Part shown: positions 28,821 to 38,767 of the stretch, one piece after another | How the letters are laid out: each line of letters starts with the position of its first letter | How positions within the stretch are numbered: the stretch's first letter is position 1 | DNA from: Sinomonas sp. ASV486 | GTDB lineage: Bacteria; Actinomycetota; Actinomycetes; Actinomycetales; Micrococcaceae | Assembly (NCBI RefSeq): GCF_030908215.1 | Contig: NZ_JAVFJK010000019.1 | Coordinates: forward strand, 1 to 38,767 | DNA length: 38,767 nucleotides | Reading direction: 5' to 3' | The notes under the pieces: model-generated | What the model was told of the DNA's origin: nothing | Seen by the model: only the letters and a program-made list of their open reading frames with translations | The model's database searches: none | Program-made: the position numbers and the translations under genes

Positions 28821-30285
28821 CATCGCCGGGGGGCCCGCGGAGTCTGCGGGGGACCCGTGGGACTCGGCCGTGGCCCTGCGCAACGCACTCCGCTCAGGCA
28901 CCGTGTCCTCGCGGGAGGCCGTGGCCCACTATCTGGGACGGATCGAGGCCCGCAATGGGCTGCTCGGGGCGTTCCTGACCGTCACCGCCGAGCGCGCGCA
29001 CGACGCCGCTGCTGCCGCGGACTCACTGTATGCGCGCCTCTCGCGCTCGGGCCAGCTCTCGGACGCCAGCGGTCCACTTCCTGCCCTCCCGGCCCTGCAC
29101 GGGATGCCGACCGCGTTCAAGGACCTCACTGACGTCGCGGGCGTACCGACGACCCACGGGTCCGCCGCTCTCGAAGCCCGGCCAGCCCCGGCCGACGCTC
29201 CGATCGTGGCCCTGCTCCGATCGGCCGGGGTCGTATCACTCGGCAAGACGCAGGTGCCCGAATTCGGCCTCACCGCGTACTCGGAGAATCGCATCGCGCC
29301 CCCGTCCCGCAACCCGCACGGGCCAGCGCTGAGCTCCGGCGGTTCCTCGGGCGGCTCGGCTGCCGCGGTTGCGGCGGGGCTCGTGCCCTTCGCCCCCGGA
29401 TCTGATGGCGGAGGGTCGGTTCGCATCCCGGCAGCGGCGTGCGGGATCGTGGGACTCAAGCCTGGCCGCGGACTCATCCCCGAGGGGCAGAGCGCTGGGG
29501 ACGCTGCGCGGCTCGTCGTCGCCGGGCCGCTCGCCCGGAGCGCCGAGGATGCGGCGCTGCTTCTGGACGCGCTCGTCTCCGGGCCAGCACGAGGCGACCA
29601 CCCGCACGCGGGGCGGCACGCCGGAACCTACACGGACGCCGTCGTGCGCGAACCACACCGCCTCCGGGTGGCCGTGAGCCTCGCGAGCCCGTGGGACGCG
29701 AGGTACGAGGTGCGGCCCGAGCCGGACGCGCTCGAAGCGCTGCGCCGCGGGGCAGAGTCCCTCGCGGCGGCGGGGCACCTCGTCGTCGAGCAGGACGTGC
29801 GGTTCGACAACCGCTACCCGGACGCGTTCACCGCCGCGTGGACCGCGGGGGTCGGGACCGCGCGGATCCGGGCCGAAAGGGAGCCGCTGCTGACGCCGCT
29901 CACGCGTTCGTTCCGTCGGCGGGCGCAGCAGCGTTCCCACGCGAAGCTCGACGAGGCGCACGCGTTCCTGCGGCACTTCGAGCGGGAGACGGTCGCCCAG
30001 CTCTCGGACTGGGACCTGCTGCTCTCCCCCGCGCTAGCCCAGACACCGCGGCCGGTCGGCTGGTTCTCCGGCGGGGCCGAATGGCGTGCGACGGCGGACG
30101 ACGACTACCGCCGCCAGTGCGAGTTCGCCCCGTGGTCATCGTGGGTGAACGTGTGCGGGCTGCCCGCCGTCGTGGCAACGACGCACTGGACCGCGGCTGG
30201 GCTGCCGATGGGCGTACAGGCCGTGGGCCACGCCGGGTCCGAGGCCATGCTGCTGCAGGTGGCCCGGCTCCTCCACCGGGCCTAG
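28813..30285 (+). CDS. Amidase, amidase-signature family
   Basis: A 490-residue cytosolic amide hydrolase with the Ser-cisSer-Lys triad: Lys103 in AFKDLTDVAG, cis-Ser about 178 in SSGGSSGGSAAAVAAG, and nucleophile Ser202 in GSDGGGSVRIPA. It lacks the GatA-specific context (no gatB or gatC nearby), so it is more likely a catabolic amidase. The C-terminal region has WVNVCGLPAVV and GVQAVG, typical of the family. Substrate is unknown. The start is ATG 28813, overlapping the 30-codon leader ORF; no other in-frame start lies nearby. Its TAG stop shares bases with the stop of the opposing DUF4190 gene. Confidence 0.94.
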   Translation: MADIAGGPAESAGDPWDSAVALRNALRSGTVSSREAVAHYLGRIEARNGLLGAFLTVTAERAHDAAAAADSLYARLSRSGQLSDASGPLPALPALHGMPTAFKDLTDVAGVPTTHGSAALEARPAPADAPIVALLRSAGVVSLGKTQVPEFGLTAYSENRIAPPSRNPHGPALSSGGSSGGSAAAVAAGLVPFAPGSDGGGSVRIPAAACGIVGLKPGRGLIPEGQSAGDAARLVVAGPLARSAEDAALLLDALVSGPARGDHPHAGRHAGTYTDAVVREPHRLRVAVSLASPWDARYEVRPEPDALEALRRGAESLAAAGHLVVEQDVRFDNRYPDAFTAAWTAGVGTARIRAEREPLLTPLTRSFRRRAQQRSHAKLDEAHAFLRHFERETVAQLSDWDLLLSPALAQTPRPVGWFSGGAEWRATADDDYRRQCEFAPWSSWVNVCGLPAVVATTHWTAAGLPMGVQAVGHAGSEAMLLQVARLLHRA

Positions 30286-31076
30286 ACCGAGCGCGTGTAC
30301 CCCGTGTGGGTCGAGAGCGAGGCGAAGGCGACCGCGAGCAGGGCCAGCACGAGGACCGTGAGCACGATCCCCACGTAGCCCATGATGAGTCCGGCGAGGG
30401 CCATACCGCGGCCCGCGGGCTCGCGGGCGAGGCCCATGTGGCCGAGGATCACCGCAGCGATCTGCGGCAGGATGAAGACCCCGAAGCCGAGGTACACGGA
30501 GATCCCGCAGACCATCGATGCGATGCTGAAGCTCCGCGGGGCCGGCGCGCCGTAGAAGCCTGGGCCACCGGGGTAGCCTTGGGCTGCGCCCGCGTAGCCC
30601 TGCTGGGGGGTGCCGTAGCCCTGATAGCCGGGGGCCTGGTACTGCGGGTTCTGGTACGCCGTGTTCGGGTACTGGGGGGTCGGATACTGGGCGTTGGGGT
30701 ACTTCGTTTCATGGTCCGGCGAGCCGTCCTGGGGCGCCTCGTGACCGGGCGTCTCGTGACCGGGGGTCTCGTGGCCGGGGGTCTCGTGGCCGGGGGTTTC
30801 GTGACCGGGGGTTTCGGGGCGAGCAGTCTCGACGCCAGTGGTCGCGGGGCCGATGCCCTGCTGGCCCGGCTGCTGCACGGGAGGCTGCTGAGGGGGCCTC
30901 TGGCCGAACGGCTCGGATGGGGCCTGCGGCTGTTGCGCCGTCCCAGGAAGCGGTGCGGCCCCCGGGATTGCATGATCCCCCGGCGGCAGGGGCTGGGTCG
31001 GGTTGCTCGGAATCGGCACCGTGTCTTGCGTGCTGCCGTCCGGTCTGTGCTCGCGCTCTTCTGGCTCCTGCGACAT
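30282..31076 (-). CDS. DUF4190 membrane protein with repetitive Pro/Gln-rich N-terminus
   Basis: 264 residues. The long disordered N-terminal half is rich in Pro, Gln, Gly and Tyr. It contains five tandem ETPGH copies and several YPxxQYP-like repeats. The C-terminal 85 residues hold two membrane spans (about 180-205 and 222-250) around GHMGLAREPAGRGMALAGLIMGYVG, the DUF4190 pattern. ATG 31076 follows GGGAGG at suitable spacing. Possibly a cell-envelope scaffold; function unknown. It converges on the amidase with overlapping stop codons (CTAG). Confidence 0.9.
   Translation of the reverse strand: MSQEPEEREHRPDGSTQDTVPIPSNPTQPLPPGDHAIPGAAPLPGTAQQPQAPSEPFGQRPPQQPPVQQPGQQGIGPATTGVETARPETPGHETPGHETPGHETPGHETPGHEAPQDGSPDHETKYPNAQYPTPQYPNTAYQNPQYQAPGYQGYGTPQQGYAGAAQGYPGGPGFYGAPAPRSFSIASMVCGISVYLGFGVFILPQIAAVILGHMGLAREPAGRGMALAGLIMGYVGIVLTVLVLALLAVAFASLSTHTGYTRSV
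30741..30815. repeat. Five 15-bp coding repeats (ETPGH)
   Basis: Units of 15 bases at 30741, 30756, 30771, 30786 and 30801, differing by one or two bases. Each encodes ETPGH on the minus strand. Length variation by slippage would keep the frame. Confidence 0.9.
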
Positions 31077-31245
31077 CGCGTGCCCTCCCCTGATGGTCCG
31101 CCGCTGATCTGGTCCCGCGTCCAGCCTACTCGGAGGCACCGGCACGCCGCCGATCTCGACGCCTCCCGCGACGGGAGCCCGAGAAATGTCGGTGGACGAT
31201 GCGAATCTGAGGACACAGCGCATCCACGGCGAAGGGGGCAGGACC

Positions 31246-32130
31246 ATGACCATCACCCACGGCGAGCAGCCACAACGGAAGCCACACCCTCGGCCAACCC
31301 CGGGCAGCGCGGGCTATGACGCCGCATTCCTCGGCACGTCGGCGCCCGTCCCCATGCCTACGAAGCCGGGGCTGATCCCGCTCACGTACACGCATTTCAC
31401 GGTCCGCCAGGACCCCGCGCGGCGCATGCCTGCCGCCACCGCCGTCAACATCGACGGACCGACACTCGTGGACATCGCTCGCGGCGGCGAGTCCTGGGCG
31501 CTAGATCCGCGCCTCGCGAAGGACCAGCAGTGGGGTGCTGAACTCTACTCAAGCAACCGGCTGGACCGCGGCCACCTCGTGCGCCGCCAGGATCCGCTCT
31601 GGGGAGACCAGGCCACCGCGGAGCGGGCGAACCTCGACACGTTCCACTACACCGTGTGCGCGCCCCAGGCGGACTACTTCAACCAGGGCCGCGAGCTGTG
31701 GCTCGGCCTGGAGGACTACATCCTCGGGCATGCTGGAGCGCACCTGCAGCGGCTCTCGGTCTTCTCGGGCGCGGTCTTCGACGCCGAGGATCCCGCGTAC
31801 CGCGGCGCGCAGATCCCCCGCCGATTCTTCAAGATCGGCGCCTGGAACGCGGGCCCCAAAAACGGTGGGGCCCTCGCGTGCACAGGCTACGTCCTCGATC
31901 AGAGCGACGGGCTGGATAGCGTACTGCGCCCTGGCGCGCGCGGGGCCGCGCCGCTGGGCCCCTTCAAGACGTTCCAGGTGCCGGTCGCGGACATCGCCCA
32001 CCTCACCGGGCTTGATCTCGGCCCCCTGACTGCGGCGGACCGCTACTCGGTGCCCCGCGGCGCGCGCACCACACTCGGCGCAATGGAACGCTGGCGCGAG
32101 ATCGAAGGGTTCAACGATGTCCAACTCTGA
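31246..32130 (+). CDS. DNA/RNA non-specific endonuclease (NUC1 family)
   Basis: 294 residues, related to Serratia nuclease and EndoG (beta-beta-alpha-metal fold). The catalytic signature DRGH lies at 107-110 in NRLDRGHLVRRQD. The downstream FNQG and GLEDYI carry the Asn and Glu that bind metal or catalyse in the family. The usual SN before PQ is VC here (YTVCAPQ), a variant. There is no signal peptide. ATG 31246 is preferred because AGGGGGCAGG precedes it; ATG 31186 would add 20 residues. It overlaps the downstream M4 protease by 14 bases. Unusual: an apparently cytosolic nuclease with no dedicated immunity gene recognised, unless the protease/inhibitor pair controls it. Confidence 0.93.
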   Translation: MTITHGEQPQRKPHPRPTPGSAGYDAAFLGTSAPVPMPTKPGLIPLTYTHFTVRQDPARRMPAATAVNIDGPTLVDIARGGESWALDPRLAKDQQWGAELYSSNRLDRGHLVRRQDPLWGDQATAERANLDTFHYTVCAPQADYFNQGRELWLGLEDYILGHAGAHLQRLSVFSGAVFDAEDPAYRGAQIPRRFFKIGAWNAGPKNGGALACTGYVLDQSDGLDSVLRPGARGAAPLGPFKTFQVPVADIAHLTGLDLGPLTAADRYSVPRGARTTLGAMERWREIEGFNDVQL

Positions 32131-33313
32131 GCACGTCTCCGTGCAGCGGCACCGGGGGGCAATCCCGCCGTATCTCCTCGAGCGCATCGCAACCTACGAT
32201 GAACGCCGGGCCCGAGCCCTGCGCGGCGAAGGTCCCCCCAACGGCTGGGCAGAGGACACTCGGGGCCTTGAAGCCGTCGCTGAGGTCGCCCGTCGCACCC
32301 TCCTGACGGACCAACGGCTCCGTTCCCGGCGCGAAGCGCACACGGCCGAGCCGGAACACAGCATCCTCAGGGATCCGGGCGCGCTCTACCGGGAGATCAG
32401 CGACGCCGAGGGGACGGAGAGACTTCCCGGGAAGCCCCTGCGCAAGGAGGGCCAGGATCCCGTCGCAGATGCGGACGCCAACCGGGCCTATGACGGACTC
32501 GGCGAGACGTACCGCTTCCTGAAGGAAGTCTTCGCCCAATCGAGCATCGACGGTGCGGGACTTGCGCTCGAGGGGACGGTCCACTTCGGCGTCGCGTACG
32601 ACAACGCGTTCTGGGATGGCTTCCGGATGGTGTTCGGCGATGGAGACGGGAAGGTGTTCGCCTCGTTCACCAGCTCACTGAGCATCATCGCCCACGAGCT
32701 CGGACACGGGCTTCTGCAGCACACCACCGATCTGGCGTACGAGGGCCAGACGGGCGCCCTGAATGAATCGTTCGCGGATGTGTTCGGGGTGCTCGTCGAG
32801 CAGTTCTCGCGCGGGGACACGGTCGAGTCGGCGAGCTGGATCGTGGGGGAGGGGATCTTCCTGCCGGGGATCCGGGGCGTGGGAGTGCGTTCGATGAAGG
32901 CGCCGGGCACTGCATACGACGACCCTGTGCTCGGCAAGGATCCCCAGCCCGACCACATGGACGGCTACGTGCGCACGCGGGAGGACAACGGCGGCGTGCA
33001 CCTCAACTCCGGCATCCCCAACCGTGCCTTCTTCCTCGCGGCCGAGTCCCTCGGCGGCCATGCGTGGGAGCGGGCCGGACGCGTCTGGTTTGAGACCGTC
33101 GCCCTGCAGAAGCTCGCCCTCGACGTCGACTTCCGCGGCTTCGCGCGGGAGACTGTGCGTGCGGCCCGTTCCCTGTACGGCCGCGAGTCCGCCGAAGAGA
33201 AAGCTGTGCGCGCGGGCTGGCGCGGCGTCGGGATCACGGTCCGGCTCACGGACGCGGGCAAGGGCACGCCGGCGAATGGGTCCGGCCGGAAGGGGCCACA
33301 GACAAAGCGCTAG
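32117..33313 (+). CDS. M4 family metallopeptidase, protealysin-like
   Basis: A 398-residue zinc protease. The short propeptide carries PPYLL (residues 17-21) in HRGAIPPYLLERIA, the hallmark of protealysin-type precursors. The catalytic domain has HELGH (193-197), the zinc Glu217 in GALNESFADVFG, and the active-site His in DNGGVHLNSGIPNRAFF. There is no Sec or Tat signal, so like protealysin it is cytosolic or leaves the cell by another route. It overlaps the nuclease gene by 14 bases and is followed after 13 bases by an emfourin-like inhibitor gene. The basic tail (GSGRKGPQTKR) is extra. Confidence 0.95.
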   Translation: MSNSEHVSVQRHRGAIPPYLLERIATYDERRARALRGEGPPNGWAEDTRGLEAVAEVARRTLLTDQRLRSRREAHTAEPEHSILRDPGALYREISDAEGTERLPGKPLRKEGQDPVADADANRAYDGLGETYRFLKEVFAQSSIDGAGLALEGTVHFGVAYDNAFWDGFRMVFGDGDGKVFASFTSSLSIIAHELGHGLLQHTTDLAYEGQTGALNESFADVFGVLVEQFSRGDTVESASWIVGEGIFLPGIRGVGVRSMKAPGTAYDDPVLGKDPQPDHMDGYVRTREDNGGVHLNSGIPNRAFFLAAESLGGHAWERAGRVWFETVALQKLALDVDFRGFARETVRAARSLYGRESAEEKAVRAGWRGVGITVRLTDAGKGTPANGSGRKGPQTKR

Positions 33314-33326
33314 GAGACGCGGTGCG

Positions 33327-33659
33327 ATGAAGATCGAGGTCATCCGGTCGGGCGGGGTAGCGGGGATCCCCCGGAGCGCCGCCGTCGAGTTCGGCTTGCG
33401 CGGTGACGCCTACGACCCCGAGTGGGCCTCGCTGTACCGTGCGGCGCGGCAGGAGCGGGCCCAGCTGTTCGCGCCGGCTGGGAGCGCCGCGAGCACGGCA
33501 GGCGAGCAGCGCCACGAAGCCGCCGGCGCGCCGTCGCACGTCAGAGATGCATTCCACTGGACTCTGAGGTTCGGGCGCGAGCGGTTCGACGTCCCGGACG
33601 GAACGCTCCAGGGTGCGCTGCGCGAGCTCGCCGAGAAGGTCCTGGCCGAGGGCACGTGA
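33327..33659 (+). CDS. Emfourin-like inhibitor of the protealysin-like protease
   Basis: A 110-residue small protein beginning MKIEVIRSGGVAGIPRS, with strand DAFHWTLRFGRERFDVPDG and helix LRELAEKVLAEG. This layout matches emfourins, cytosolic protein inhibitors of protealysin-like M4 proteases encoded next to them. The middle (about 48-72) is an Ala-rich insertion. The ATG lies 13 bases after the protease stop with GGAGA upstream. Identification rests on the neighbour and the strand/helix pattern, so confidence is moderate to high. Confidence 0.85.
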   Translation: MKIEVIRSGGVAGIPRSAAVEFGLRGDAYDPEWASLYRAARQERAQLFAPAGSAASTAGEQRHEAAGAPSHVRDAFHWTLRFGRERFDVPDGTLQGALRELAEKVLAEGT

Positions 33660-37655: not shown

Positions 37656-38767
37656 ATGTCGAAGAACAAGGTCATCGTCGTCGCAGTCCTTGAGGGTGGG
37701 ATGTCCAAGGCCGAAGCAGCCCGCCGGTACGGCATCAGCCGCCAATGGGTCCACCAACTCATCGCCCGCCACGCAGCCGAAGGAGAGGCCGGCCTCGAGG
37801 CCCGCTCCCGGCGGCCCCGCACCAGCCCGCAGCAGACGCCGGCCAACGTTCAGGAGAGGATCCTGGTCCTACGCGCCGACCTGCAGGCCAAGGGCCTGGA
37901 CTCCGGGGCCGAGACCATCGCTGCCCATCTCGGACGCGAGGGCCTCCCGGTGCCCGCGAGCACCACCATCCACCGCATCCTCCGGGCCGCCGGCGCGGTC
38001 GCCCCCGAACCCCACAAGCGTCCCAAGTCCTCCCTGCGACGCTTCGCCGCGGCCCAGCCCAACGAGACCTGGCAGTCCGACTTCACCCACTGGCACCTGG
38101 CCGACGGCACCGACACCGAGATCATCGACTTCCTCGACGACCACTCCCGCTGCCTGCTCCACCTCACCGCCCACCCCAGGACGACCGGCGCCATCGTCGT
38201 GGACGCCTTCCTGGACACCGCACAGGAACACGGCCTGCCCGCCAGCACCCTGACCGACAACGGCATGGTCTACACCACCCGCCTGGCCGGCGGGAAAGGA
38301 GGCCGCAACGCCTTCGAGAGCCTCATCGCAGGGCTCGGGATCGTCCAGAAGAACGGATCCCCCGGCCACCCCCAGACCCAGGGCAAGATCGAGCGCTTCC
38401 ACCAGACCCTGAAGAAATGGCTCCACAGCCAGCCTCCGGCCCAGACCATCGAGGACCTGAACGACCAGCTCACCAGATTCCGCCACGTCTACAACCACGA
38501 ACGCCCCCACCGCGCGCTCGGCAGGCACACACCCGCCGAGGCCTACGCCCAGACCCCCAAGGCCGGCCCCGCGGCCGCCGCCCAGGGGGCACACTTCCGC
38601 GTCCGGACCGACCGCGTCGACGCCGACGGCAAGGTCACCCTCCGCCACGCGGGACGCCTCCGTCACCTCGGCATCGGCCGCGCCCACAGGCACAAACGCA
38701 TCATCCTGCTCGTCCACGACGCCGAGGCCACCGCCATCGAGCACGGCACCGGCGAGATCCTCGCCGA
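37656..38767 (+). CDS. IS481-family transposase (3'-truncated by window edge)
   Basis: Open for 370 codons with no stop in the window. An N-terminal HTH (MSKAEAARRYGISRQWVHQLI, about 16-36) is followed by a second helical region ending HRILRAAG. The rve/DDE catalytic core has Asp142 in WQSDFTHWHL, Asp201 in LTDNGMVY and Glu246 in QGKIERFHQTLKKW. HERPHRALGRHTPAEAY follows, typical of IS481. The start ATG 37656 gives MSKNKVIVVAVLEGG; upstream lie the ACATCGTTGAC repeats. All visible catalytic residues are intact, so the element could be active. Confidence 0.94.
   Translation, partial: MSKNKVIVVAVLEGGMSKAEAARRYGISRQWVHQLIARHAAEGEAGLEARSRRPRTSPQQTPANVQERILVLRADLQAKGLDSGAETIAAHLGREGLPVPASTTIHRILRAAGAVAPEPHKRPKSSLRRFAAAQPNETWQSDFTHWHLADGTDTEIIDFLDDHSRCLLHLTAHPRTTGAIVVDAFLDTAQEHGLPASTLTDNGMVYTTRLAGGKGGRNAFESLIAGLGIVQKNGSPGHPQTQGKIERFHQTLKKWLHSQPPAQTIEDLNDQLTRFRHVYNHERPHRALGRHTPAEAYAQTPKAGPAAAAQGAHFRVRTDRVDADGKVTLRHAGRLRHLGIGRAHRHKRIILLVHDAEATAIEHGTGEILA

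Follow-up and report, generated by a model that had tools for sequence, protein, structure and literature searches.

The window analyzed here is a 38,767-nt stretch of DNA from a soil bacterium, Sinomonas sp. ASV486 (NZ_JAVFJK010000019.1). It carries a three-gene unit in which an EndoG/NucA-type endonuclease gene is followed by the gene for a protealysin-like M4 protease and then by that for a divergent emfourin (Table 1). The coordinates of these genes in a preliminary description of the sequence, the 14-nt overlap of the first two and the 13-nt gap between the protease stop and the inhibitor start were all borne out. By eye, no hydrophobic signal was seen at the N-termini of the three proteins, in keeping with the earlier claim that none has a signal peptide, and Pfam detected no further domains in any of them.

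Table 1. Features of the nuclease–protease–inhibitor operon (positions within the window).
Feature	Position	Strand	Details
Operon leader	31180..31245	+	Shine-Dalgarno-like GAAGGGGG before nuclease ATG
NUC1/EndoG/NucA-type DNA/RNA non-specific endonuclease	31246..32130	+	294 aa; ATG 31246 to TGA 32130
Stop–start overlap of nuclease and protease genes	32117..32130	+	14 nt; identical in 7/7 Sinomonas loci
Protealysin-like M4 metalloprotease precursor	32117..33313	+	398 aa; ATG to TAG; PPYLL propeptide, HELGH
Divergent emfourin, likely M4 protease inhibitor	33327..33659	+	110 aa; ATG to TGA

The preliminary description had named a NUC1 nuclease, a protealysin-type protease and an emfourin-like inhibitor, and the motifs DRGH, HELGH and PPYLL were found in the translations by sight. 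Pfam placed the first two proteins above cut-off. The third identity holds less firmly; the Emfourin profile (PF20242) gave 23.7 bits against a cut-off of 27. The nuclease matched Endonuclease_NS (E 7e-36, 124 bits, cut-off 23) and had no match in NCBIfam. Used alone, its sequence matched no PDB sequence; with an alignment as query it matched EndoG, NucA and the Serratia nuclease, and its fold is EndoG-like. Residues D107, R108, G109 and H110 (DRGH), N146 and E156 are invariant in all 27 aligned sequences; we take DRGH to be the catalytic motif and N146 and E156 to be the metal-ligand Asn and Glu. Confidence in the AF2 model is low at about residues 131–150, including N146, and 231–240, where the low pLDDT may come from nothing more than the small number of aligned sequences (27 rows). 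The N-terminal tail varies among these sequences, and neither a segment peculiar to the operon nucleases nor an operon-specific pro-segment was seen; a loop near residues 226–240 is also present in stand-alone homologs.

The protease matched Peptidase_M4_C (PF02868, 1.5e-49) and Peptidase_M4 (PF01447, 8.9e-22) and is the sole PF01447 match in its genome. NCBIfam returned only two equivalogs, far under cut-off. Its closest solved relative is 2vqx (E 1e-97), which we take to be the protealysin precursor. The protealysin propeptide profile (PF16485) reached 19.2 bits (E 0.001), under the cut-off of 28.1, and in the alignment to 2vqx its PPYLL stands opposite PPYML, at -0.5 bits. For the inhibitor, no match was obtained in NCBIfam, nor by Foldseek with the emfourin model at E 0.001. 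Of seven more inhibitor proteins, taken from related loci and compared with the Emfourin profile, five passed the cut-off (L043, 35.9; L050, 30.2; L002, 29.2; L048, 41.5; L078, 34.8) and two missed it (L075, 23.9; L138, 24.5). The third protein is a likely inhibitor of the M4 protease.

Fifteen Sinomonas genomes were surveyed, including the window's own and one from the same species. The nuclease was found in six and the protease in ten. In every nuclease-bearing genome (6/6) the nuclease gene lies directly upstream of the M4 and emfourin genes, and a seventh nuclease-bearing Sinomonas locus comes from S. cellulolyticus (L002). The other four protease-bearing genomes (G002, G003, G004 and G007) carry the M4–emfourin pair without the nuclease. 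Because the pair persists without it in four of the ten protease-bearing Sinomonas genomes, the nuclease is an optional member. One genome (G006) has elsewhere a second, divergent M4 copy, 48% identical, with no nuclease and with an emfourin behind it (L048:4486-5921).

At all seven nuclease-bearing Sinomonas loci, which represent six species judging by divergence and kinship labels, the protease ATG and the nuclease stop overlap by exactly 14 nt. At three of these (L003, L004 and L047) the conserved protease ATG lies in open frame, though the automatic start choice lay further down. Outside Sinomonas, the overlap is 17 nt at two of three loci of the genus g240 (L075 and L076), and the genes do not overlap at the locus of the genus g262 (L078). 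A Shine-Dalgarno-like stretch was recognized by sight within the end of the nuclease gene. Given their overlap, the operon genes are probably translationally coupled. At the third g240 locus, nuclease and protease lie within one open frame of 687 aa (L077:5000-7063). A true fusion is less likely there than an indel that changes the frame or a sequence error in a draft contig, because the protease start site is kept while the nuclease end departs from its relatives.

The nuclease–M4 order recurs at 11 loci in 11 assemblies from three genera (Sinomonas, g240 and g262), and none of the 11 nucleases of this group was found away from M4. The neighborhood survey proposed earlier as a check came out in favor of the association. 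Since gene order and overlap are conserved, chance neighborhood is ruled out: the operon is real and conserved across species. The four closest nuclease homologs outside the genus all adjoin M4 (G536, G550 and G488 in g240; G461 in g262). Behind M4, an emfourin match was found in L077 and L078; the L075 protein stayed below the cut-off with its 23.9 bits, and the post-M4 gene of G550 gave a weak emfourin match (33% over 83 residues, E 6e-4) in the shorter cut L052 and was sub-threshold in L076. The nuclease is missing in three of six g240 genomes with an M4 locus examined.

On a wider scale, the nuclease has homologs in 97 of 395 genomes of the family (E 1e-8), in 63 of 347 in the order search (E 1e-20) and in 11 of 396 in the phylum search (E 1e-8). 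The protease occurs in 223 of the 395 family genomes (E 1e-10), and in ten of these the nuclease lies beside it. Using tblastn with the window protease as query, we detected no M4 neighbor within the flanks of 69 other nuclease loci, a survey that covers part of the family nuclease matches and that a distant M4 could escape. These loci comprise ten from the phylum (L032-L040, L042), 36 from the family (L079-L114) and 23 from the order (L157-L179); flanks were usually 1 to 6 kb, with one side shorter in L112 (676 bases), L160 (291), L167 (125) and L162 (36). In another actinobacterial family, an M4 gene fragment lies directly upstream of a 710-aa trypsin–NUC1 fusion (L041:565-3400), which hints at a second M4–NUC1 association. 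Conversely, emfourin and nuclease were looked for at 20 M4 loci from elsewhere in the family. An emfourin match was present at 12 (tblastn, E 0.01), two of them spanning 23 residues only. The post-M4 gene clusters with emfourins in L142, L144, L151 and L152, no emfourin was seen in L143, L146, L148 and L153, and the nuclease was found at none of the 20. The nuclease is thus the accessory, and the commoner protease–inhibitor pair the stable core.

The history of the operon was followed on trees and in the leader DNA. A single change on the nuclease tree accounts for the operon copies (branch support 71/29; 76% of bootstrap trees), and the branch reached 97/90 with one outside row added; the same operon label on the M4 tree takes four changes. 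This difference fits one gain and several losses, and the nuclease was probably gained once and lost repeatedly. Two of the branches that decide between loss and insertion have supports of only 80/82 and 85/80. For the leader comparison, the 100 bases before the protease in three of the four nuclease-less Sinomonas genomes (all except G007; L043, L044 and L045) were aligned and scored against 200 mononucleotide shuffles. They aligned to the nuclease leaders of L002, L050 and L003 with scores of 35 to 81 (shuffle maximum at most 29), and with the pre-protease stretch of five nuclease-bearing relatives they scored 17 to 28, inside the range of the shuffles. Weaker matches, 18 to 35, came from the nuclease leaders in the window, L004 and L047; the window leader gave 27, 31 and 35 with the three nuclease-less leaders, where the shuffle maxima were 29, 25 and 29. 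In L002 and L050, an 11-base repeat, CGATGTCCAGC, occurs at both the nuclease and the protease start codons. Because the nuclease leader now precedes the protease, and because of this repeat, the nuclease-less Sinomonas operons are best read as products of a nuclease deletion between its own start and the protease start; the nuclease leader upstream of M4 in L043, L044 and L045 would then be a likely deletion scar near the 11-base repeat. The alternative, an insertion of the nuclease in the nuclease-bearing relatives, is less likely given the tree. Nothing convincing was found when eleven nuclease-less loci were searched for nuclease remnants before M4.

Estimates of dN/dS (Nei–Gojobori, five pairs each) were 0.08–0.30 for the nuclease, 0.12–0.20 for M4 and 0.20–0.39 for emfourin; all three genes look constrained, as under purifying selection, the inhibitor least. 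A promoter scan of the operon detected no promoter-like site and no sigma-70 consensus, and a terminator scan gave a single terminator-like site, within the coding sequence of the protease, in line with chance expectation.

In Pfam, the ten neighbors of the operon are a seryl-tRNA synthetase, a diacylglycerol kinase, a prephenate dehydratase, a rhodanese, an amidase, a DUF4190 protein, a phosphoglucomutase, a MarR protein, an MFS protein and an rve transposase. Flanking clusters are common to the relatives, including nuclease-less ones, with the amidase and DUF4190 genes upstream and the phosphoglucomutase gene downstream. The DUF4190 protein (window 30282-31256, minus strand), encoded divergently from the operon, has a proline-rich N-terminal part with tandem ETPGH repeats. 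The rve (integrase-core) transposase gene occupies window positions 37656-38767 and runs to the contig end. With housekeeping neighbors and a locus common to several genera, a recent mobile or defense island is unsupported. None of the three operon proteins matched PADLOC-DB 2.0.0 at E up to 1, and the ten neighbors gave weak MarR matches only, to CARF, Csa3 and SoFic models, which we take as shared helix-turn-helix. The absence of PADLOC matches to the operon and the housekeeping neighbors argue against the anti-phage role that the preliminary description had entertained. Among plasmid records, 80 matched the nuclease and 95 the protease; when 40 of each were compared, the sole record in common was a chromosome-sized Nonomuraea record with the two matches 1.4 Mb apart.

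The protease and inhibitor genes resemble the protealysin–emfourin operon of Serratia proteamaculans, where an M4 protease gene is likewise followed by emfourin and the protease is described as intracellular (PMC9505478). According to the available text of that study, Serratia protealysin cleaves RecA and FtsZ, loss of emfourin leads to an earlier fall in culture density and to less FtsZ, and the authors proposed an antibacterial delivery role for the protease. Unlike in the window, no nuclease gene is mentioned and the word 'nuclease' is absent from the available text of PMC9505478; moreover, the emfourin here is divergent and a putative inhibitor.

The suggestion in the preliminary description that coupling to a nuclease might be undescribed finds no support. 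The accessible text of Kaur et al. 2020 (PMC7159879) couples NucA endonucleases to trypsin and S8 peptidases and proposes a proteolytic cascade that deploys the nuclease, and Tuck et al. 2025 (PMC12799240, as far as available) report a protease-activated nuclease of another fold, MBL. The operon is like System 3 of the former study, described there as mostly alphaproteobacterial, in joining an Endonuclease_NS (NucA-type) protein to a peptidase. It differs in that the core peptidase of System 3 is of the trypsin type, in some cases accompanied by S8 subtilisin, EAD1 or STAND parts, whereas the partner here is M4 with an inhibitor; the words 'thermolysin' and 'emfourin' are absent from the accessible text of PMC7159879. 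No trypsin domain was found in the three operon proteins or the ten neighbors, and no STAND NTPase in the latter (Pfam). Nuclease genes also stand beside protease genes in Hachiman, AVAST, Lamassu, DRT and Canu, a pairing repeated in evolution; in the part of PMC12799240 at hand, those pairs combine an MBL-fold nuclease with a trypsin-like or caspase protease in a defense context, unlike the EndoG fold and M4 partner seen here. A further parallel is Caulobacter crescentus LypC, in which an endonuclease domain, which that study aligns with S. marcescens NucA, is joined to a peptidase and takes part in lysis control (PMC13236601). Unlike the operon, LypC is a trypsin-like fusion with NLR-like partners, and its endonuclease residues are dispensable for lysis, according to the available text.

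Within the same family as Sinomonas, NUC1 is fused to Trypsin_2 in proteins of about 700 aa (L101-L106; by Pfam in L101 and L104, the others by similarity), and five of these six (L101, L102, L103, L105 and L106) adjoin a homolog of the gene that Pfam names an S8 subtilase in L101; in that locus the arrangement lies at L101:3952-7397. These Micrococcaceae fusions beside S8 resemble System 3 as it appears in the accessible text of PMC7159879. The fusions L101 and L104 group with L039 and L041 of other families (90/91), apart from the operon copies, which suggests that nucleases of this family have been paired with proteases at least twice. Searches of the open-licence PMC literature pointed to no M4–nuclease–emfourin operon in the titles and abstract openings that they returned. 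Nuclease–peptidase coupling is known; within that scope, M4 with its own inhibitor as the partner is apparently new.

We favor, with modest confidence and at a probability somewhat below even, the joint reading that the operon has been inherited vertically and works as an intracellular shutdown (self-digestion) module. It is favored because the pair is the stable core, because protealysin cuts RecA and FtsZ, and because the nuclease would make breaks that go unrepaired. All three proteins would stay in the cytoplasm, the protease being held by its propeptide and by emfourin. Terminal stress or infection would free the protease, key proteins would be destroyed, and the nuclease would destroy DNA and RNA. 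Should the protease cut RecA, as Serratia protealysin does, nuclease breaks would be left unrepaired and the two activities would reinforce each other. Apart from the intact catalytic motifs, the observations consistent with this shutdown reading are the nuclease–M4 order at 11/11 loci with an emfourin-like gene behind it (weak in g240, in L075 and L076/L052), the 14-nt overlap, the label counts on the two trees, the dN/dS values, the leader common to nuclease-bearing and nuclease-less operons, and the protealysin cleavages and emfourin-loss phenotype in the available text of PMC9505478. On the other side, the pair is kept without the nuclease in four Sinomonas genomes and in three of six g240 genomes and so can do without it. 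Conservation extends to the flanking genes, which makes the retained adjacency in part a matter of plain synteny; the reading would also require some means of silencing such a nuclease inside the cell; and the LypC endonuclease residues can be dispensed with (PMC13236601, available text). Two enzymes of independent function behind one promoter, the nuclease having joined an existing protease–inhibitor operon with a housekeeping or scavenging role of its own, appear rather unlikely. Such independence would accord with the rarity of the nuclease beside a family-wide protease (10 of 223 genomes), its seemingly repeated loss and the many homologs without a neighboring M4 (homologs occur in 97 of the 395 family genomes); against it stand the exact overlap kept across species, the 0/11 nucleases of the group away from M4 and the recurrence of the protease–nuclease theme as trypsin–NUC1 fusions.

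Activation of a nuclease proenzyme, with release from emfourin allowing M4 to cleave the nuclease in a loop or tail, much as trypsin-like proteases and caspases act on the gated nucleases of Hachiman, AVAST and Canu, is unlikely in our estimate. A precedent exists with another nuclease fold (PMC12799240) and a proposal for NucA and trypsin (PMC7159879), both in the text available, and the low-confidence stretches at about 131–150 and 231–240 of the AF2 model might form loops close to the active site and leave room for gating. However, no tail or loop peculiar to the operon copies was seen, the 226–240 loop being shared with stand-alone homologs, and the low pLDDT may stem from the 27-row alignment; activation by the protease is possible but unsupported. 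The reverse relation, a safety latch in which the co-made protease can destroy the nuclease, would suit the stop–start overlap and the fact that within the genus the nuclease never occurs without the protease (6/6). We consider it quite improbable: an inhibitor encoded on the same transcript would keep the latch from working, and 69/69 other nuclease loci lack such a neighbor. Equally improbable is that nuclease and protease are antibacterial effectors, injected or leaked into rivals while emfourin protects kin. Delivery was proposed for protealysin by its authors (PMC9505478, available text), and a single WXG100 match in the genome points to a possible type VII system. Against it, the operon includes no recognized nuclease immunity protein and no further Pfam domain, and the lack of any Phage_sheath_1 match in the genome argues against a phage-tail-like injector.

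It is possible, if doubtful, that the operon is a bacterial death cassette made of an emfourin-held metalloprotease and an EndoG-type nuclease, in which a single event, the loss of either the inhibitor or the propeptide latch, would both take away DNA repair by RecA and accompany DNA destruction. If true, it would be the metalloprotease counterpart of the trypsin–NucA and caspase–nuclease systems. Nuclease–protease pairing is an increasingly recognized theme in bacterial immunity and cell death, and with this operon it would gain a third protease class, one accompanied by a gene for its own inhibitor. Because some Sinomonas have the nuclease and some of their relatives lack it, behind seemingly the same leader, the genus offers a clean natural comparison, which makes the in-cell role of protealysin–emfourin pairs, and the dependence of the nuclease on them, directly testable. 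Among the other nuclease loci, two carry proteins of about 1,300 aa (L037:726-4574 and L038:6866-10873); the L037 one is without a Pfam match at E 0.01, and both belong to one cluster and lie beside stand-alone NUC1 genes.
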